DNA of 28,230 nt. Origin: a virus. The translations under genes and the position numbers were made by a program. Positions 6,481-28,230 of the stretch are shown here, one piece after another (the stretch's first letter is position 1; every line of letters starts with the position of its first letter). The stretch lies in IMG/VR virus record IMGVR_UViG_3300023174_000523, positions 1 to 28,230 of that record; one strand, 5' to 3'. The notes below the pieces were generated by a model. The model ran no database searches. It saw only the letters and a program-made list of their open reading frames with translations, and was not told the origin of the DNA.

Positions 6481-9075
6481 TTAGACAGCTAGTGCTACCT
6501 GTGGCAGCTTGGGTTCGATTTTTTCGACGGCGATTTTTATTTCTTCCACGAAGCCTTTGATCTGCTCGAGAAGGCCGCTTGTGCCGCTCTTGGCGGCGAT
6601 GTCGAGTTCGATGCCTTCCTTGAGTTGGGCGCGGATGTTTTCGATGGATTGCTCGGCGTCGAGTTCGACGGCAACGCCTCCGCCGAGGCCGGCGAGTTGC
6701 TCTTGGGCTTTGGTGGTGTCGGCGTCCACAGTGACGGTCTTGGGATTCGCCAGGGAAGCGACTTGCTGCTCGGCGGTGGTGGTGTTGGCCTCGAGCGGGA
6801 GGATGGTTTTCTTGCCAGTGATGGTGTCTTGAATTCCCTGCCAGGTTGAGTTGAAGGCATCCGAGTCGATTGGGTTAACGGCAAGCTTGTCTTTCGACTC
6901 TCCGACAAAATCGATGATCGCTTGGAGTTGTTCCTTGCCGGTCAGTGAGAGATCGCGGACGCCGAGTTTCTTGGCGATGTCGGCAAAAGCCATATTTTGC
7001 AGGTCGACGTTCATGTATTCGCCGAAAGCCTCGATCTCGGCGCGGGCGGCCTTGGCATCGAGCTTCGCCTCTTCGACGGCTTTAACCTTTTCGATCTTGC
7101 CCATGGCCTCGAGGAAGGACTTGGAGCCACCGAGCGCGTTTTCCATGGCCTGCGCGTCTTCCTTGGCGGTGGTAAAGGCTGGCGGCTTGATGTTGTCTGC
7201 GTTGATTTTCGCGGCGGCGAGGTTGTTGGCAAAGGCAGCGGCTTCCTTCTCCCCCATGCCGGAGGCGATGGCTTTCTTCCAAGATTCGAGCCATTCCTTT
7301 TTCTTGGTGAGGTCTTCGATCTCTTGCTTGTTTCCGGTGGCTTTGGCTTCGGCGAGTTGAAGCTCAAAGGCCAAATCCTGCTGTTTCAATTCGTTGGCCT
7401 GCCTGTCTTTTTTTAACTTCTCTTCAGCAGCGGCAGCGTCTTTTTCTTTGAGAGCCAGCCCTTTTTGGTATTCTTGAAAATATTTTTTAGCTTCTTTTTC
7501 GGCTTCAGATTCTTGCGCTACTACGCCTTGCGTGGAGGCCTCCACGCGCTTGGTGATTTCATCGACGCGTTCGAGATCTTTTGTGACATCGAGGAGGGGT
7601 TTGGCTTCCGCATATTTTTCCTTAAAAGTGTCTGGCAGTGCCGCGCCAGCTTCCACGAGTTGCTCTTTTACAAGTTCGATATTTGCGCCTAAGCCGGTAG
7701 TGTATTGTTCCACGGCGCGGCTGGCAGACTCCATCGAGTATTTTGCGTTTTCGGCGAGGCCTGCAAAAGCTGGTCCCATTCCGGAGAGAGATTCATAAAG
7801 CGCACCGGATATTTGCTCTTTGATTTTTGCAGATAAAATCTGGAATCCGCGCTCAAGCAGCATGAATGCGGCACTATCCGGTCCCAAAACTTTTGTGAAA
7901 AAATCCACGGAGGTGCTGGCCGCAGCAGAGAGGTTCTTGTAAATTTCGTTCGCTGTCTGTTTGGTCTGCAACACAACAGATGCCCACACTGCTTCAAAAG
8001 CGGTTCCGATCTGACCGGCATTGATTGCCTTGAGCGCTGTGTCGAATCCTTTCATGGCACTCCCCGCGCCGATAAAAGCATCCGCGAGGCTCTGGCCGAT
8101 GGATGCGGCATCGACCCGAGAAAGCGCTGTGGTAACGGCATCCAGCGCTGGCATGACACGGGAGAGGATGCCCGCCGCAAATTCGGTGAATTTGTTTTTA
8201 ATGGCGGAAATGTTGTCTCCGACATTGTCGAATTTCTCCGATAGCTTGGCCATGATGCCAGGCAGGATGCCGAGTTGAGCGGATGCCGTTTGAATCTCAC
8301 CGTCAAGATTTGCAAAAAGCTGATTCAGCGCACCTCCGCTCTTGCCGAAGACTTCCATGGAAACGGCAGCGCGTTGTGCCGGGTCATCGATGCCAGCGAT
8401 AGCTTTGCCAAGGAGTTTGAATTGCTCGTCAGGCGTTAGGTTTTTAAGCTGTGAAAGCGGAATGCCGAGCTTCACAAAAGCATCGGCTGCGGTGGATGTC
8501 CCGTCGCCTGCGTCCACGATGGCCTTTTGCATTTTGTTAAGTAGCGGGCCAAGGGAGTCAGCACCCACACCGGCATTATTGAAAGCCCTCTCTAAAGCAA
8601 GCAACTGATCGGCGGCGACTCCTGTGCGCTCTTTCAGATCAACCAACCGCCCGCCCAGATCGATAGCCTCGCCAAAACTCTGAATCGTCTTTTGCGCGGC
8701 AGCAACAGCGCCATCAACAAGCAACATGCCAGCCTTCACGGCAGCCCCGCCAAGTGCGGCCGCGCCTGCGAGTTTTCCAAATGAAATCTCGCCGCGCTTT
8801 CCTGCATCCTCGGATTTGTCGCCCATCATTTTGATGTCCTTACCGAGTTCGTCGATCTTTGGTCGCGTTCCGGAGGACTCATCGCCGATGGCTTTGAGCT
8901 TCTTTTCCAGCCCTTCGGCTTGGCCGATTTTACGCATCGTGCGCTCGAGTTCATCAAAGGAAAGTTCACCGCTCTTGACTTTGCCTTGCAGGTCGCTCAT
9001 TTCGGCTTGGATCGTCTTGAGCGTCTTCTCAAGACCGACATCCTGCGCGCCGAATTCTACTGAGACATCAGCCAT
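6481..9075 (-). CDS. Tail tape measure protein
   Basis: 864 residues, the longest complete gene here, as expected for a tape measure. The N-terminal third is helical and Lys/Glu-rich (MADVSVEFGAQDVGLEKTLK). An Ala/Gly-rich hydrophobic stretch follows near residue 100 ('LAGAAALGGAAVKAGMLLV'), then long helical regions with Phe/Ala-rich segments, and a highly charged coiled coil at about residues 520-610 (EAEKEAKKYFQEY..., KKDRQANELKQQD). It lies directly after the tail chaperone region and one further gene, as in lambda-like phages. Using the general rule of about 0.15 nm per residue, a tail near 130 nm is predicted. A clear AGGAGG precedes the ATG. No lytic transglycosylase or peptidase motif is evident. 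Confidence 0.9.
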   Translation of the reverse strand: MADVSVEFGAQDVGLEKTLKTIQAEMSDLQGKVKSGELSFDELERTMRKIGQAEGLEKKLKAIGDESSGTRPKIDELGKDIKMMGDKSEDAGKRGEISFGKLAGAAALGGAAVKAGMLLVDGAVAAAQKTIQSFGEAIDLGGRLVDLKERTGVAADQLLALERAFNNAGVGADSLGPLLNKMQKAIVDAGDGTSTAADAFVKLGIPLSQLKNLTPDEQFKLLGKAIAGIDDPAQRAAVSMEVFGKSGGALNQLFANLDGEIQTASAQLGILPGIMAKLSEKFDNVGDNISAIKNKFTEFAAGILSRVMPALDAVTTALSRVDAASIGQSLADAFIGAGSAMKGFDTALKAINAGQIGTAFEAVWASVVLQTKQTANEIYKNLSAAASTSVDFFTKVLGPDSAAFMLLERGFQILSAKIKEQISGALYESLSGMGPAFAGLAENAKYSMESASRAVEQYTTGLGANIELVKEQLVEAGAALPDTFKEKYAEAKPLLDVTKDLERVDEITKRVEASTQGVVAQESEAEKEAKKYFQEYQKGLALKEKDAAAAEEKLKKDRQANELKQQDLAFELQLAEAKATGNKQEIEDLTKKKEWLESWKKAIASGMGEKEAAAFANNLAAAKINADNIKPPAFTTAKEDAQAMENALGGSKSFLEAMGKIEKVKAVEEAKLDAKAARAEIEAFGEYMNVDLQNMAFADIAKKLGVRDLSLTGKEQLQAIIDFVGESKDKLAVNPIDSDAFNSTWQGIQDTITGKKTILPLEANTTTAEQQVASLANPKTVTVDADTTKAQEQLAGLGGGVAVELDAEQSIENIRAQLKEGIELDIAAKSGTSGLLEQIKGFVEEIKIAVEKIEPKLPQVALAV

Positions 9076-21830: not shown

Positions 21831-22255
21831 TTGTTGAGTAGCTCCCGCACGCGCTTGGCTTCGCGCTCCATTGGCTCGAGGAGTTCGAGGGCGCGGTTGA
21901 GGCGGTCCTTGTCCCATTGCGGTATCTCATCGCTCATCTTGCGCTGCCAGAGGATGAACGACTGCGACAAGCCTTCGATGGTTACAATAGCCTTGGTCTT
22001 GTCGGCAGGGTTTAGGGCGGGCTTTGGTTCCGGTAGGGCAAGGCCGAGGTCGAGTTCGAGTTGCGTCTCGGTGTCTGCGGTAAACTCCACGCCCCAGCGT
22101 GCGGTCGAGTAGTCGCGGGACTGGGTGAGCCACTTGGTTGCGGCCTTCTTGCAAACGAGGATGTCGCGGTGGATCGCGGTCCATTCGGTGGGTGTGAGGT
22201 TTTCTGGCAGGTTGAGCGATGCCAGTGTAAACATGGTTGTATCTATGAGTTGCAT
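21827..22255 (-). CDS. Unknown protein in the replication-accessory block
   Basis: 142 residues if begun at the ATG at 22255 (MQLIDTTMFTLASLNLPENL). That start overlaps the preceding gene by 13 bases but has the same purine-poor ACCAAACCACGACAAACAT leader type as the uncoupled genes. The alternative ATG at 22234 gives 135 residues. The longer frame reaching 22378 reads through the upstream gene and is not supported. The C-terminal half is a long charged helix ('KDRLNRALELLEPMEREAKR'). No family recognised. Confidence 0.55.
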   Translation of the reverse strand: MQLIDTTMFTLASLNLPENLTPTEWTAIHRDILVCKKAATKWLTQSRDYSTARWGVEFTADTETQLELDLGLALPEPKPALNPADKTKAIVTIEGLSQSFILWQRKMSDEIPQWDKDRLNRALELLEPMEREAKRVRELLNK

Positions 22256-22776
22256 ATGTTTGTCGTGGTTTGGTTTTTTCTTTTTGCGATTGCCGCCGCT
22301 TTCGCGGCAGTAAATGGGTCGGTCGCCTTGGCGCGGAATGTCTCGCGACTGGCTTGGGATTTGCGGAATTTCGTGCACTCGAAGGATGTGTCCTTCCCGC
22401 TCAGGACATCACGCACGCCGAGCGTGTAGTGCGAAAGAAGCGCACGCGTCACGCCCAGCTCGCGGGCTACTTCAGCCTGGGAGCGTGCGCCGTTGAGTTG
22501 GTCGAGACCGGATGCAAATGCCAGCGCGTGCGCCATCGCCGGCAGGTTGCTCGCTTTGAGTAGGAGGCCGATGACTTTGCCGAGGATGAGCGCCTGATTT
22601 TTGCGCACTTCATTTTCTACATGAAGCAGGACAAGGCGCGCGGCCTTCACGCTGATGCCCAGCGAGTCGGCCAATATTTCCTCCGGCGAATCGATTTCGT
22701 CGGCGATGTCGGGCCAATAAACGCCGCCGTTCTTTTCAAACAGGCGGGTGGCTTCTGCGGGTGAGGCTGAGATCAT
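22243..22776 (-). CDS. Helix-turn-helix protein, possible late or early regulator
   Basis: 177 residues, starting MISASPAEATRLFEKNGGVY. A helix-turn-helix of resolvase/sigma style is visible at about residues 96-125: 'RSQAEVARELGVTRALLSHY'. The N-terminal half is helical ('EILADSLGISVKAARLVLLH') and may contain a second such unit. The C-terminus is basic ('KAAAIAKRKNQ'). It could be a transcription regulator or a DNA-binding replication accessory protein. No known regulator family is clear. It overlaps the zinc-ribbon gene by ATGA. Confidence 0.65.
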   Translation of the reverse strand: MISASPAEATRLFEKNGGVYWPDIADEIDSPEEILADSLGISVKAARLVLLHVENEVRKNQALILGKVIGLLLKASNLPAMAHALAFASGLDQLNGARSQAEVARELGVTRALLSHYTLGVRDVLSGKDTSFECTKFRKSQASRETFRAKATDPFTAAKAAAIAKRKNQTTTNICNS

Positions 22777-22967
22777 GTTAGGTGTTCGCTGATTATGGTT
22801 TTGAGGTTGTTGTATTTGGAAATCTTGTCGAATTCGTCACCGTGTATCTCGTAGGTCGTCCATGTGTGCGGGCACTTGTTGCATGACCGGCGGCGGTATG
22901 TGTGGTCATAGGTCTGGCGGCTATCGAATACGCGGCTGGTCGCGTGGCATTTCGGGCAGGGTTTCAT
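22773..22967 (-). CDS. NrdR-type zinc-ribbon protein without ATP-cone
   Basis: 64 residues. C4-x2-C7 and C29-x2-C32, with 'FDSRQTYDHTYRRRSCNKCP' and 'TWTTYEIHG', match the pattern of the N-terminal zinc ribbon of NrdR (C-x2-C, DSR, RRR-x-C-x2-C, TTYE). NrdR represses ribonucleotide reductase genes. This protein has the DNA-binding ribbon but lacks the nucleotide-sensing ATP-cone that normally follows, so it may be a stand-alone DNA-binding module or regulator. It is ATGA-coupled on both sides. Confidence 0.7.
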   Translation of the reverse strand: MKPCPKCHATSRVFDSRQTYDHTYRRRSCNKCPHTWTTYEIHGDEFDKISKYNNLKTIISEHLT

Positions 22968-23152
22968 TCGTCAAATTGGCTGGTTAGGTGGTAATTGTTG
23001 CAGACCGGGCAAAAATAGACGCGGAGCTTGCGGTTTTTGTTTCGTCGGGCGGTCATCAGGAATTTGAGATTGCTCTTGGCGGATTTGAATGTTTTGAACC
23101 GGCGCTTGGACCAGCACATTTTCCACGCGATGAATGGAGGGACGGATGTCAT
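22964..23152 (-). CDS. Small C-x2-C-x4-H zinc-binding protein, copy 1
   Basis: 62 residues, starting MTSVPPFIAWKMCWSKRRF. It is basic, with 'FCPVCNNYHLTS' near the end. The spacing C-x2-C-x4-H plus an upstream Cys in 'WKMC' suggests one zinc site (C3H). It shares W-x-M-C-x-S-K, an R-rich middle, CP[V/I]C and HLTS with the small gene at 25120-25299, so the two are paralogues. Probably nucleic-acid binding, expressed with the helicase through the ATGA overlap. Confidence 0.7.
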   Translation of the reverse strand: MTSVPPFIAWKMCWSKRRFKTFKSAKSNLKFLMTARRNKNRKLRVYFCPVCNNYHLTSQFDE

Positions 23153-24414
23153 GTTGCCTCCTCAAATCTGGCAATGTGTCCGTGCATCACGACCGGCACG
23201 GCCTTGTCGCGTTCGCCGTTTCGGTTCTTGTCTATGCGCAGCACCTTGCCTTCGTCGCCTTTGGCGATGATCCACACATGATCGGCATGGTGGGAAATGG
23301 CGCGCGATTCGCGGAGTCGGCCTTCGTCGTTGAGTTGGGACGCTGTGCCGACGGCAATGTCGAGTTGCAGCGCCAGCCCCTTCAGCCTGCGGGTGATCTC
23401 CGAGACATGCTGCTCGCGTGTCTCGTTCTTGCCGAGGGTGCGGAGAGCCACGAGCTGGATGTAATCGACGATGAGAAGGTCGAGTTGGCCTTTGCCGTGT
23501 GCCTCGCGGGCAGAGGCTTCGATGGATTCCCAGTCGGCAAAGTCCGATTCGATGCGGAGATTAGTTCGCTTAAACGCCGCAAGCGCCTGGTGCATTCGCG
23601 CCATGTCTTGCTGGATCATGCCTTCGGCAGCGGTCTTGACGCGGTGGCCGGTGAAGTTTGAGAGCATTCGGCCAAAGACCTGCTTGGCCGGCATCTCCAG
23701 GCTGAATAGGAGCACATGCTTGAGCTTTTCCGCCGCGTCGAGTGCCACCTGTTGCAGGATGATCGATTTGCCTCCAGATGTCTCGGCCGCTATAACGAAA
23801 AGTTCGCCGCGCTTCGGTCCACCGCCGGTCAGTGCATCCAGTGAAGGCAGGCGGGTCGAGAATGCCTCGGGCGGCTCCGTGCGCTCGATCTCGGCCAGCC
23901 ATTCGTCCATCGTTTCGGCCAGCGTCTTGCGCGGGCGGTCCACAAGCGCGGAGATTTCAGCGAGACGCCCGGAGACGGCTGCGATGTCGCCTTCCATCGT
24001 TCGAAACGAAATGGCAGCCTCCGAGGCCGCTTGTTGGGCCTGCCGGTAGCGGGCCGCGGTCAGCAGTTGTTCCCGATACCAGAGCGCCGTCACCGGGTCT
24101 TTGGTCGGGTAGGCTGCGAGAATGTCCACGATCGCTTGGTGTCCACCGGCCGCGTCGAGTGTGCCGCAGGTCTCCATGTGGCTGATGATGCTCAGGGCGT
24201 CCGAAGGCGCGCCGGATTCGTGGCAGGCTTTGGCCGATGCCAGGATGAGCTTGTTCGCGGGATTAAAAAACAGGTCGTCCGGCCATGTGGCCAGGTCGAG
24301 CGTCGAGAGATGCTGCACGATGCAAGATAGCGCCACTTTTTCCGCTGTGTCGTTCCGTGGGACCGCTGGCGGCATTTGGATGATTTCGGCCTTTTGGGGT
24401 GTGTAGGTTGGCAT
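23149..24414 (-). CDS. DnaB-like replicative helicase
   Basis: 421 residues. An N-terminal helical domain ('DTAEKVALSCIVQHLSTLD') is followed by a RecA-type domain. Walker A is 'AAETSGGKS' (209-217), with Ala at the usual first Gly as in many DnaB proteins. 'LLFSLEM' (235-241) carries the conserved Glu, Walker B is 'LLIVDYIQL' (313-321), the sensor Gln is in 'GTASQLN', and an Arg-finger-like 'RIDKNRNGERDK' lies near 393-404. DnaB-type hexamers unwind DNA ahead of the fork, loaded here probably by the organiser-like protein encoded just upstream. It starts six bases after that gene. Confidence 0.9.
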   Translation of the reverse strand: MPTYTPQKAEIIQMPPAVPRNDTAEKVALSCIVQHLSTLDLATWPDDLFFNPANKLILASAKACHESGAPSDALSIISHMETCGTLDAAGGHQAIVDILAAYPTKDPVTALWYREQLLTAARYRQAQQAASEAAISFRTMEGDIAAVSGRLAEISALVDRPRKTLAETMDEWLAEIERTEPPEAFSTRLPSLDALTGGGPKRGELFVIAAETSGGKSIILQQVALDAAEKLKHVLLFSLEMPAKQVFGRMLSNFTGHRVKTAAEGMIQQDMARMHQALAAFKRTNLRIESDFADWESIEASAREAHGKGQLDLLIVDYIQLVALRTLGKNETREQHVSEITRRLKGLALQLDIAVGTASQLNDEGRLRESRAISHHADHVWIIAKGDEGKVLRIDKNRNGERDKAVPVVMHGHIARFEEAT

Positions 24415-24420
24415 AGTCGA

Positions 24421-24879
24421 TTACAGGCAGCGTTGCGGTTCTGGTTGGGGGTTCTTTGAACCCCCTATTATCTTCTCTTCTCTAGTCCCGTTTTGGTCAC
24501 GCTGCGGGCGTGACATTTTCGTGACAGCTTCTTTGGCGCGTTGCTTCCACTTTCTTTGTGTTGCAAGTCCACGCTCTTTAGCGGTTTGGCTGTTGTGGCG
24601 GTCGAAGTTTGTGAACTCGATTTTCTCGCCTTTGATGCGAATCCATCCGCAGTTTGCGAGTGCTTCGTCGAACTGCTCGCAGCGCGTGATTTCGCGGATG
24701 ACACGGAGAGCCGTGACACTTGTCACGCCGTCAGCGTGACAGTTTCGTGACGCCCAAGCCCACACCTTCACGAGCTTCCCGACCACCGTATCCGGGTCTA
24801 ATCCGGTCTGTTCAGCGATAGCCGACACCTCGATCTTTTCGTGTAGGTGGTTCTCCACCTTGATCCATTCTCCAGCCAT
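24421..24879 (-). CDS. Replisome organiser-like protein (winged-helix N-terminus)
   Basis: 152 residues, starting MAGEWIKVENHLHEKIEVSA one base after the upstream stop. The N-terminal region ('IAEQTGLDPDTVVGKLVKVW', 'ANCGWIRIKGEKIEFTNFDR') matches the general plan of phage replisome-organiser or DnaT-like proteins placed beside a helicase. The C-terminal part is basic, with 'HNSQTAKERGLATQRKWKQR', typical of this group. It probably binds the origin and recruits the helicase encoded next. The gene contains two 30-bp repeats built of CGTGAC words, as in phages whose origin lies inside the initiator gene. Short compared with full organisers (often 200-300 residues). Confidence 0.75.
   Translation of the reverse strand: MAGEWIKVENHLHEKIEVSAIAEQTGLDPDTVVGKLVKVWAWASRNCHADGVTSVTALRVIREITRCEQFDEALANCGWIRIKGEKIEFTNFDRHNSQTAKERGLATQRKWKQRAKEAVTKMSRPQRDQNGTREEKIIGGSKNPQPEPQRCL
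24447..24465. repeat. Perfect 8-bp inverted repeat near the end of the organiser-like gene
   Basis: GGGGGTTC, TTT, GAACCCCC. No T-run follows on the minus strand, so it is probably not a terminator. It lies about 33 bases before the helicase start and 30 bases from the first CGTGAC repeat block. Confidence 0.6.
24496..24751. repeat. Two 30-bp CGTGAC repeat blocks, candidate replication origin
   Basis: Block A (24496-24525) is GTCACGC, 5 bases, GCGTGACA, 4 bases, CGTGAC. Block B (24722-24751) has the same layout and spacing. Block B is preceded by the palindrome CGTGACACTTGTCACG (24712-24727). In all, seven CGTGAC/GTCACG words occur, mostly 10 or 11 bases apart in each block, about one helical turn. 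The two blocks are read in different codon phases, so protein constraint does not explain them. Confidence 0.65.
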
Positions 24880-25493: not shown

Positions 25494-25985
25494 TTAAAAC
25501 GGAATCTCGTCTCCGTCTGCGTCGAGTTGTTTCGGTGCGGGTTTAGCGGCTGGCTTTGCGGCAGGTTTGGCGACCGGCTTGGCGGCCTCCTTTGGCTCAA
25601 GCCAGCGTTCGATCGTGTTGAAACGCGCGTCGGGGTTCTTGCTGCCGGGTTCTTCGCCTAAAACGACCCATGCGGACGCTCCCAAGAGGTCTTCGGCTTC
25701 GATCGTGACCTCTTCGCCAGGAACGATGGCTTGCCCAAGTGCCATACGCACTTGGTCAATTTTCCATAATGCTTTAGCTGTAAAAACTAAGTTGTCCCTG
25801 AGTTCCGGTCCGTTTGTCCCGTCGGGGAGCTTGACGCGGCAGGTCAGTTTGATCATCGGGTTTCCGCCTGTGCCATCAGGTTTTACCTGTGATGTCGTCT
25901 CGACGCTCTTTGTGATCTCGACTTCGTATTTTCCCGGCTCGACGAAATAGGTCTCGCGGGGTTCCGTTTGTGTATATGTAGGCAT
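25494..25985 (-). CDS. DUF669-like single-stranded DNA-binding protein with SSB-type tail
   Basis: 163 residues. Residues 1-125 are beta-rich ('GKYEVEITKSVETTSQVKPD', 'LRDNLVFTAKALWKIDQVRM', 'EVTIEAEDLLGASAWVVLGE') and match the plan of DUF669-type phage proteins that sit beside Sak4/RecA-like ATPases and nucleases. Then comes a flexible 'KPVAKPAAKPAAKPAPKQ' linker and an acidic end 'DADGDEIPF'. The D-x-I-P-F tip is the hallmark of SSB tails that bind replication and repair proteins. It probably coats single strands and recruits partners. The leader is C/A-rich without Shine-Dalgarno, as for capsid. Confidence 0.8.
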   Translation of the reverse strand: MPTYTQTEPRETYFVEPGKYEVEITKSVETTSQVKPDGTGGNPMIKLTCRVKLPDGTNGPELRDNLVFTAKALWKIDQVRMALGQAIVPGEEVTIEAEDLLGASAWVVLGEEPGSKNPDARFNTIERWLEPKEAAKPVAKPAAKPAAKPAPKQLDADGDEIPF

Positions 25986-26079: not shown

Positions 26080-27093
26080 TTATTTGGTTTTGTTGGTGAC
26101 TTGGCGCATTTGCTTTGTGCCGGGTGCTGTCTTCACAAACTGGTAGGGGTTTTCGATTTGCAGTTCTTCAGCGAGTTCAAGAAACTTCTCAGCACTCATC
26201 TTCCCGCCGCCGATTAGGAATGCCCGACCGGCATCAAGCTTCGATGCCGTTTCGACGGCTGTATTGGCTTCGATGTATTCCTTTTCCTTTGGGTTGGTGA
26301 GCTTCCAGCCGGGAATCTCTTCCTTGGCCTCAAGGCGCGCTCTGAGTGCATCAAGAACAGGCTCAGCGATGTGCTTCTCTGCGGTCTTCCAATTTGCGGC
26401 AAAGACGCTCATCTTAATCGGGTCGGCGACGATCTCCGCGCGGATCTCGTCAACCGTGCGGCCGTAGGAAGTGACAAGCTCCAGAGCGCTTTCGGCTTGG
26501 CGCACTATGGCCCCACATGAGTTGAAATTGGCGCACCAGCCGCAGTATTCGCACGGCGTCGGCTTGGCGTCCTCGCTCGTGGCCTCGGCGATCCACCGCT
26601 GCGTCGTGGCCTCAGCCTCGGCGCGTGTGAAGTCGTAGGACCGCACGAGCCGCTGATCTATGTAGATCACATGCGCGGTCCACGATTCGGCAAAGTGATC
26701 TTCCATACAGGCGAGCGCATAGGCCGCGACCTGCTTGCGGTAAGGTCTGACTTGGCCGCTTTTTACATCTGCCACCCAGCGTCCGCGCTTACAGAGCGCG
26801 TCTGCGGTGCCGAGCTTCGAGAGTCCCGGCACGGCCATTGCGAGATATTCCTCGCGGGTCTCAATATGCTCGCCGCCGGACAGGCGGTTCAGCGTCTCAA
26901 TGCCCCACGTCGCCGCATCGCAGTCCTCGCGGTTAAGCTGCGAAAGCGGAATAGGGTTTCCGTCCATTGCCATGCGGATTGCATAGTCAATGGCCGTCCC
27001 GCGCTGGGCCGCCTCGCTGGCACCGGATGAACCAACGAATACGGCACATTCCGCGAGTTTTGGTGCCATGGAGGGGGTGAGTTCTTTACTCAT
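26080..27093 (-). CDS. PD-(D/E)XK nuclease with Cys cluster (RecB/Cas4-like)
   Basis: 337 residues, starting MSKELTPSMAPKLAECAVFV. Nuclease motifs are 'RGTAID' (31-36), 'KLGTADALC' (D98), 'VADVKSG' (D109, K111) and 'YRKQVAAYA' (Q121). Cysteines C181-x2-C184-x2-C187 and C193, with C16 near the N-terminus, fit an iron-sulphur or zinc cluster like that in AddB and Cas4 nucleases and in DUF2800-type phage proteins. It overlaps the Sak4 gene by ATGA. It likely resects DNA ends for single-strand annealing or strand invasion together with the ATPase and SSB-like protein. Confidence 0.85.
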   Translation of the reverse strand: MSKELTPSMAPKLAECAVFVGSSGASEAAQRGTAIDYAIRMAMDGNPIPLSQLNREDCDAATWGIETLNRLSGGEHIETREEYLAMAVPGLSKLGTADALCKRGRWVADVKSGQVRPYRKQVAAYALACMEDHFAESWTAHVIYIDQRLVRSYDFTRAEAEATTQRWIAEATSEDAKPTPCEYCGWCANFNSCGAIVRQAESALELVTSYGRTVDEIRAEIVADPIKMSVFAANWKTAEKHIAEPVLDALRARLEAKEEIPGWKLTNPKEKEYIEANTAVETASKLDAGRAFLIGGGKMSAEKFLELAEELQIENPYQFVKTAPGTKQMRQVTNKTK

Positions 27094-28028
27094 GCTGCCT
27101 CCTTGAATTCGTTAGCCTTGGCAATTAGCGCCTCGGGCCGAGCCACGATGTTTGCGCGGATCTTCTCCGAGACATCGCGCCAAGTTTGCCCTGGCTTGAT
27201 AGATTTGTTGGAGATCAGGAAGGCGTTGACTGCTTCCTCGTTGGCCTCGAGCATCTCAAAGGCCCGCACATGCTCTGCACCGACCACGACCACCGCCGGT
27301 TCGACTTTCACTTTTGGCGTTGCGTTTGTAGCGAATAAATGCGCCACCGAATCCCACTCCATCGGCAACTCTTCAGCCAATCCGCTGCGTGTCTTCGCAT
27401 CGTAGGCCGCCGAGTGCGTTGTCAGGATTATCCGCTGCTTGCCGCCGGTGCCTTTGGCCTTGCCGTTCTCAGACTCAACGACTTTGGTCTTGAACCGGAA
27501 GAACCAGAGTTCGTCCGCCCATTCCTTCACGAGCGGCGATGACTGCTTGCTCATCTTCAGCTCGTAGCGGTCGTAGGCCGCCATCAAGTCCGGCGGCTCC
27601 ACGCGCTGAACCTTGCTGTGTGCGAGTAGGACGACATGTTTGCCATTCGCGATTAGCGAATCCAAGGCCGTCAGCATCCGGCTCATCCGTTCCGCCACCA
27701 TCACCCAGCCTTTGCCGTAGCCATAATCCTCAATGCTGGCCTTCTTGGTGCTGGCCAGTAGGTCTTCGACGCATAGGCGCTCTGCCCAATCCGCCGAGTC
27801 AATGATGACCGTCTGGTAGTCGCTGGCTGCGACCTCCTTGAGTGCGCCGTTGAGTTCCGCCCAGCTGTTGATCTCGCAGCGATCGGTGTCCAGGTGTGCC
27901 GTGCCTCCCTCGATGTCGAGGAACAATGGAGTCGGGAATTGCGCGGCAAATGTTGTTTTGCCAACGCTTTCCACTCCGTAAATGACCACGCGCTGTGGTC
28001 GTGTTTGTTTGCCTTTTAGTATTTTCAT
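27090..28028 (-). CDS. Sak4-type RecA-like recombination ATPase
   Basis: 312 residues from the ATG at 28028 (MKILKGKQTRPQRVVIYGVE). This start overlaps the upstream stop in ATGA form; a start 48 bases further upstream only adds a non-conserved Arg-rich stretch. Walker A is 'GVESVGKTT' (18-26), Walker B 'TVIIDSAD' (73-80), and 'HVVLLAHSKVQRVEPPD' holds the sensor region. Such proteins act as phage single-strand annealing or recombination ATPases, working with SSB and a nuclease. The C-terminal 80 residues are helical and may bind DNA or partners. Confidence 0.85.
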   Translation of the reverse strand: MKILKGKQTRPQRVVIYGVESVGKTTFAAQFPTPLFLDIEGGTAHLDTDRCEINSWAELNGALKEVAASDYQTVIIDSADWAERLCVEDLLASTKKASIEDYGYGKGWVMVAERMSRMLTALDSLIANGKHVVLLAHSKVQRVEPPDLMAAYDRYELKMSKQSSPLVKEWADELWFFRFKTKVVESENGKAKGTGGKQRIILTTHSAAYDAKTRSGLAEELPMEWDSVAHLFATNATPKVKVEPAVVVVGAEHVRAFEMLEANEEAVNAFLISNKSIKPGQTWRDVSEKIRANIVARPEALIAKANEFKEAA

Positions 28029-28230
28029 TTTTTCGTGTTTGCGGCAGCGAAAACGGCCACTGCCAGTGCCGCCCAACTATGGGATTTGATGCCGTAAGTC
28101 TGGCCCGGCTTGGCCTTGGTTCCCTGTGGCCCGACGAGATCGAGCAACGCCTGACGCACATTGGCGTCCTTTGCTCGCATCGTGCCGCAGAGAAAAAGTT
28201 TGATGTCCTTGCGATAGCAAAGAACCGGCT
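28025..28230 (-). CDS. RuvC-like Holliday junction resolvase, C-terminal part
   Basis: The window edge cuts this gene. 67 codons are visible, ending at the TGA at 28025. The fragment contains 'RKDIKLFLCGTMRAKDANVR' and 'KPGQTYGIKSHSWAALAVAV', the pattern of phage RuvC-type resolvases (AKD-A-x-V-R-x-A-L, then YGxxSHxWxALAVA). It would resolve recombination or replication junctions before packaging. The N-terminal catalytic acids are outside the window. Placed first in the visible recombination block and overlapped by the Sak4 start. Confidence 0.8.
   Translation of the reverse strand, partial: PVLCYRKDIKLFLCGTMRAKDANVRQALLDLVGPQGTKAKPGQTYGIKSHSWAALAVAVFAAANTKK

Follow-up and report, generated by a model that had tools for sequence, protein, structure and literature searches.

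A lambda-like replication origin appears to lie inside the gene of its own initiator in the window examined here, a 28,230-base IMG/VR virus fragment. We put the probability of this reading at roughly 0.86; that the initiator reads the origin and that replication starts at this locus are inferences. Origins within initiator genes are textbook knowledge for lambda, and such an origin had been proposed for this locus in an earlier note made from the letters of the window alone. The proposal is now supported by repeats conserved in relatives, by co-variation of one initiator residue with the repeat word, and by a purine tract with a frequent hairpin. The in-gene origin itself is of a known kind; what is new is the concerted switching of its iterons together with a one-residue code.

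We consider it fairly probable, with considerable room for doubt, that the window belongs to an initiator family in which origin specificity is set largely by residue 110. Val, Lys or Gln, Met and perhaps Asn would correspond to A, C, T and perhaps G, respectively, at the third base of the word GTNACG. On a change, at least six sites in the same gene, lying in two blocks with different codon phases, would all be altered together, and the initiator would pay for this in amino-acid substitutions. The reading protein and its origin would thus form one self-contained cassette able to diverge into mutually incompatible replicons. It has so far been hard to follow how an initiator is retargeted, given that six or more sites within its own coding sequence have to change along with it. 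Within one clade of similar proteins, natural variants exist whose iterons are uniformly C, T or A at the third base, and these, together with a single obvious candidate for the specificity residue, make the co-evolution of initiator and origin directly testable. The layout also allows origins to be annotated from sequence only in hundreds of uncharacterised phages and prophages of Verrucomicrobia, Planctomycetes, gammaproteobacteria and betaproteobacteria.

Two iteron blocks within the initiator gene

The two 30-bp blocks that had been described are present at 24496-24525 and 24722-24751, 226 bp apart. Both fit the pattern GTCACGC-N5-GCGTGACA-N4-CGTGAC with zero mismatches, a result that shuffled sequences never gave, and the additional palindrome CGTGACACTTGTCACG is found at 24712-24727. 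The blocks are read in different codon phases, as claimed: the dyads begin at gene positions 140 and 366, and the peptides ASRNCHADGVT and AVTKMSRPQRD are encoded. The layout is better described by a 19-bp dyad as the unit, with further half-sites sitting about one turn (11 bp) beyond it. This essential unit is the palindrome GTCACG-N7-CGTGAC, present once per block, and the extra half-sites show helical phasing. At gene position 390, where the window has a degenerate half-site, relatives have CGTGAC or CGTAAC/TGTAAC (Table 1).

The initiator gene contains seven CGTGAC/GTCACG words. Synonymous shuffles of the gene gave 1.64 words on average, and genes with codons redrawn from the usage of the window gave 1.12; in neither case did any of 20,000 replicates reach seven. 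Across the whole window the words are only mildly enriched (20 against 13.4 expected), indicating that the signal is their clustering.

Table 1 Features of the initiator locus and its neighbourhood in the window.
Feature	Position	Strand	Remarks
Initiator gene, 152 aa	24421..24879	-	phrog_2509 E 1.9e-38; phrog_9474 E 7.3e-21
Block A outer half-site CGTGAC	24746..24751	+	gene position 129; 11 bp from dyad; unswitched in CGTAAC clade
Block A core, 19-bp dyad GTCACGCCGTCAGCGTGAC	24722..24740	.	gene positions 140-158
Block A outer half-site CGTGAC	24712..24717	+	gene position 163; switches with other half-sites
Basic-helix codons, residues 98-118	24526..24588	-	from AlphaFold2 model and class-by-class column comparison
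Codon of residue 110 (Lys in window)	24550..24552	-	co-varies with third iteron base; not within any iteron
Block B outer half-site CGTGAC	24520..24525	+	gene position 355; switches with other half-sites
Block B core, 19-bp dyad GTCACGCTGCGGGCGTGAC	24496..24514	.	gene positions 366-384
Degenerate block B half-site, CGGGAC on gene strand	24485..24490	-	gene position 390
Purine tract AGAGAAGAGAAGATAATA on gene strand, codes REEKII	24466..24483	-	candidate unwinding element
Inverted repeat GGGGGTTC-TTT-GAACCCCC, after purine tract	24447..24465	.	stem retained in relatives with other letters
DnaB-like replicative helicase, directly downstream of initiator	23149..24414	-	phrog_19 E 5.6e-63; DnaB_C E 8.2e-38
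SSB-like gene, upstream of initiator	25494-25985	-	
Exonuclease-like gene, upstream of initiator	26080-27093	-	
Sak4-like annealing ATPase, upstream of initiator	27090-28076	-	

The initiator and its neighbours

The gene belongs to a replication module on the minus strand in the right part of the window, in the order Sak4-like, exonuclease-like, SSB-like, small gene, initiator and DnaB. Residues 1-136 of the initiator, its N-terminal domain, match the phrog_2509 profile, annotated as a replication initiation protein. The match covers profile positions 1-138 of 277; the window protein stops at residue 152, and the C-terminal domain that follows the REEK tract is absent. A contig of a Verrucomicrobia MAG carries a copy of the initiator with 76% identity, a hint at the host phylum of the window phage. 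Cumulative GC skew, named in the earlier note as a check on the origin, could be computed for the 28-kb fragment but showed no informative turning point near the gene.

An AlphaFold2 model of the initiator (mean pLDDT 75.6) contains helices at residues 16-25, 29-46, 57-65, 70-77 and 98-118 and strands at 80-83 and 86-89. The predicted fold is a winged helix followed by a long basic helix, residues 98-118, for which the pLDDT is moderate (about 61-70). In the model, this helix carries the invariant residues K101, R103 and R109 along with residue 110. A sequence search of the PDB with the family profile returned nothing meaningful. Foldseek against the PDB returned nothing below an E value of 0.1, only generic winged-helix proteins of CRP-like or RepA_N-like type with Z scores of about 5.

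Two further genes lie on the minus strand in this region. The one at 22773-22967, just downstream of the helicase module, encodes 64 aa that include an NrdR-like zinc ribbon (PF22811). A 177-aa protein encoded at 22243-22776 has a weak HTH_3 match and no PHROG match, and is a possible regulator.

Concerted switching of the iterons among near relatives

Among 52 relatives in IMG/VR, two iteron states were seen. Where the proteins are at least 85% identical, CGTGAC stands at gene positions 140, 153, 163, 355, 366 and 379, the exception being a first-base change to TGTGAC at position 163 in five loci. Where the proteins are 71-76% identical, CGTAAC stands at all six positions. When the window was compared with four of these 71-76% relatives, the 36 iteron bases differed at exactly six places, which are the third bases of each half-site; in the same comparison, 70-90 of 369 bases outside the iterons differed (19-24%). 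In more distant kin (57% identity) the word is GTAACG, a third state, and residue 48 is Asn. The half-sites at gene positions 129 and 344 break the switching rule; at the former, CGTGAC is retained even in the clade with CGTAAC, and the rule therefore does not extend to every copy.

The switch alters the protein in places, changing His48 to Tyr, Ser to Leu and Asp to Asn. Residue 48 follows the DNA word, being His with GTCACG, Tyr with GTTACG and Asn with GTAACG. The words are constrained as DNA even through amino-acid changes, which bears out the earlier argument for selection at the DNA level.

One prophage locus in a Verrucomicrobia MAG (L074:346-801, JAPLTG010000018.1) has different words in its two blocks, CGTGAC in A but CGTAAC in B, and encodes Met110. 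It may be a natural recombinant between two classes, or a chimera produced by binning or assembly.

Conservation across the wider family

Absence of the repeats from relatives would have refuted the origin reading. The scan of relatives found their position, spacing and pairing to be kept, in sequence sets that are biased toward the relatives of the window. The two-block layout recurs in proteins of about 30-44% identity from phages of Escherichia, Salmonella, Xanthomonas, Pseudomonas, Klebsiella and Vibrio. The word is GTAACG in most, GTCCGC in epsilon15 and phiPSA1, and GTCACA in a Vibrio phage. Inverted pairs of the same word occur in both blocks in 88 of 146 unique genes, compared to 0-2 in synonymous shuffles; the scan tolerated arm distances of 12-14, and the repeated words were found all at 13. 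With one mismatch allowed, the dyad GTNACG-N7-CGTNAC is present in both blocks of 123 of the 146 unique relatives; a second dyad without mismatch is absent from many members of the family. The third base is equal between the blocks in 122 of these 123 (A 64, C 36, T 22), L074 being the exception. The spacing of the blocks ranges from 184 to 233 bp and peaks at 207 and at 226 bp. Since no single phase fits these values, a strict helical register between the blocks was rejected.

The dyad was found in 24 of 26 whole records (8-69 kb), with one to four copies each, mostly two or three, and is confined to the initiator gene in most of them; a few have dyads elsewhere. A reversed control pattern gave one chance match in one of the 26 records. 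The two records without an exact dyad are Pseudomonas phages, whose dyads carry one mismatch.

Several dyads lie outside initiator genes. An extra copy stands just upstream of the initiator start codon at L068:1195-1213 and at 28757-28775 in the record of L206 (G016), and is possibly autoregulatory or a third origin site. The record of L205 (G017) contains mixed-arm dyads (GTTACG...CGTCAC) at 1987-2005 and 2176-2194, 189 bp apart and far from the initiator, possibly a second, different origin or an operator pair. Xanthomonas phage Olaya (MW802488.1) has perfect GTAACG dyads far from its initiator, at 7397-7415 and 23003-23021.

Residue 110 tracks the third iteron base

In a column-by-column comparison of the iteron classes, residue 110 separated them, with Val for A, Lys for C and Met for T. 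Over all loci with agreeing blocks, the residues are 157 Val, 3 Ala, 2 Gln and 1 Thr for base A, 127 Lys and 18 Gln for base C, and 22 Met for base T. Among 114 representatives, residue 110 was the best of all columns, carrying 1.12 of 1.20 bits and assigning 98% correctly; residue 113, one helix turn beyond, ranked second.

The code was spotted by inspection and subsequently checked on loci fetched later. The class templates were chosen after the first set was known, and certain epsilon15-like members had already been picked out by eye when the second scan was made. In the later set, fetched with other seeds and comprising 52 loci unused in discovery, 23 of 26 A-class members have Val and all 26 C-class members have Lys or Gln. 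In a tree from which the iteron-coded and helix columns were left out, and in which many forks have low support, the third base changes at least 13 times. The code holds in all six of the independent pairs that lie on well-supported branches (sign test, p 0.03). Two loci distant from the clade of the window, L403 (GTTACG) and L443 (GTTGCG), each have Met110, and L207 (GTGACG) has Asn110. In the absence of binding data, we regard this co-variation as the best available sequence evidence that the initiator may read the dyads.

The rare words GTGACG, GTGGCG, GTTGCG and GTCGCC were found at L207:2501-2935, L438, L443 and L436, with other residues at position 110, suggesting that further bases of the word also evolve.

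A purine tract and often a hairpin follow block B

In nearly all members, block B is followed by a purine tract, with 75-91% purine in the first 25 nt. The longest purine run has a median of 24.5, compared to 8 elsewhere in the genes. Of the 233 arginine codons in the tract, 227 are AGA; elsewhere in the same genes the figure is 162 of 1803 (9%). This bias indicates that the tract is kept as DNA. A perfect stem of at least 7 after the tract occurs in 20% of members and in 0.8% of shuffles.

These elements allow a mechanism to be proposed. Copies of the initiator would bind the GTCACG half-sites through the basic helix that follows the winged-helix domain, one pair on each 19-bp dyad and further copies on half-sites about one helical turn off. 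The initiator would load block A, in the region coding for the winged helix, and block B about 226 bp downstream. The loaded protein could then melt the purine tract adjoining block B, where the DnaB helicase from the neighbouring gene would be loaded. Pairing of the two blocks by looping or handcuffing is a guess. The direct binding, the melting and the start of replication are likewise inferred, whereas computation shows the sites themselves, their DNA-level constraint and confinement to the initiator gene, the concerted switch, the co-variation with residue 110 and the purine tract.

Alternative explanations

The dyads could instead be operators, bound within the gene by the initiator or a phage repressor to shut off initiator transcription, with replication starting elsewhere. 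Palindromes of 19 bp are operator-sized, and the extra dyads just upstream of the start codon in Rac (442/2) and L206 occupy an operator's place. However, the two constant dyads lie 140-380 nt within the coding region, away from promoters, and arrays of half-sites, a purine tract and a hairpin come with them. Replication initiation is the annotated role of the family, and the like layout in lambda is an origin. We therefore consider operators unlikely. Somewhat less likely still is that another protein, such as a host initiator or helicase loader, reads the sites, and that residue 110 correlates through shared ancestry alone. The small number of base changes on the tree, and the low support of many of its forks, leave room for this, but the supported pairs are independent and agree, and L443 and L403 share Met110 at a distance. 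Moreover, the iteron word differs among phages of related hosts and is common to phages of different bacterial phyla, and no loader gene adjoins the initiator in the visible part of the window phage.

Two explanations dispense with protein-binding DNA sites. Every dyad could form an RNA stem of 6-7 bp in the initiator mRNA, and a separate hairpin follows the purine tract, so that translation control or a replication primer might be invoked. Stems could change singly by compensation, yet all copies in a gene keep one word, unpaired direct copies keep it too, and the word tracks a protein residue; RNA hairpins were rejected on these grounds as very improbable. The repeats could also be a by-product of selection for repeated Val-Thr and basic peptide motifs, since several copies read VT, in both orientations. 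This was refuted, and we give it almost no credence: a single word is translated in more than one frame, the observed count is never matched by synonymous shuffles, residue 48 changes among His, Tyr and Asn to follow the DNA word, and arginine codons in the tract are nearly all AGA.

Comparison with known systems

The in-gene origin favoured here resembles the lambda origin in several respects. In both, the iterons lie within the initiator coding sequence, and each iteron is a roughly 19-bp inverted repeat, the length of the minimal site of lambda O (PMC7466680), here GTCACG-N7-CGTGAC. The lambda sequence record has the same order of iterons, A-rich purine tract and inverted repeat, the hairpin being present in many members here. 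Lambda differs in having four iterons in a single cluster, whereas here there are two separated blocks, one of them in the winged-helix coding region, and in having a P-like loader, whereas here DnaB follows the initiator. Homology of the window protein to lambda O was not detected (hhalign probability 0.3%, no phrog_277 match); lambda O matches phrog_277 and not phrog_2509.

Also close are the phrog_2509/phrog_9474 initiators, often named primosomal protein I, from epsilon15, TL-2011b, Rac 442/2 (YdaU), Xanthomonas phage CP2 and Pseudomonas phage VW-6S. They share the N-terminal domain with the window protein, and their genes likewise carry dyads in two blocks, in words that vary by lineage. 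These members are 225-330 aa long; the window protein, at 152 aa, is short and has no counterpart of their C-terminal domain. No description of in-gene iterons in this family was found in the open-access literature searched; subscription journals are not excluded.

Iteron plasmid initiators offer a comparable logic of a winged-helix initiator and iterons, with fold similarity that is only weak. Comparison with 4pql, 4pt7 and 5kbj, which we take to be RepA_N initiators, gave Z scores of 4.8-5.2 over 83 residues, too low to tell true relatives from proteins with a common fold, and there is no sequence match in the PDB.

Placing Rac oriJ on a window-type gene was considered and rejected. The YdaU of MG1655 is a different, DUF1376-type protein without GTNACG dyads, and thus the oriJ literature is not directly relevant. 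Between Rac 442/2 (L068:1228-2016) and Rac MG1655 (L535:9320-10177), the C-terminal half of YdaU is common and the N-terminal domains are unrelated. The dyads occur in the 442/2 ydaU only, and the MG1655 gene contains repeats of other words, GTTCAA/AAACAG. It seems that the reading protein and its origin were exchanged here as a single cassette.
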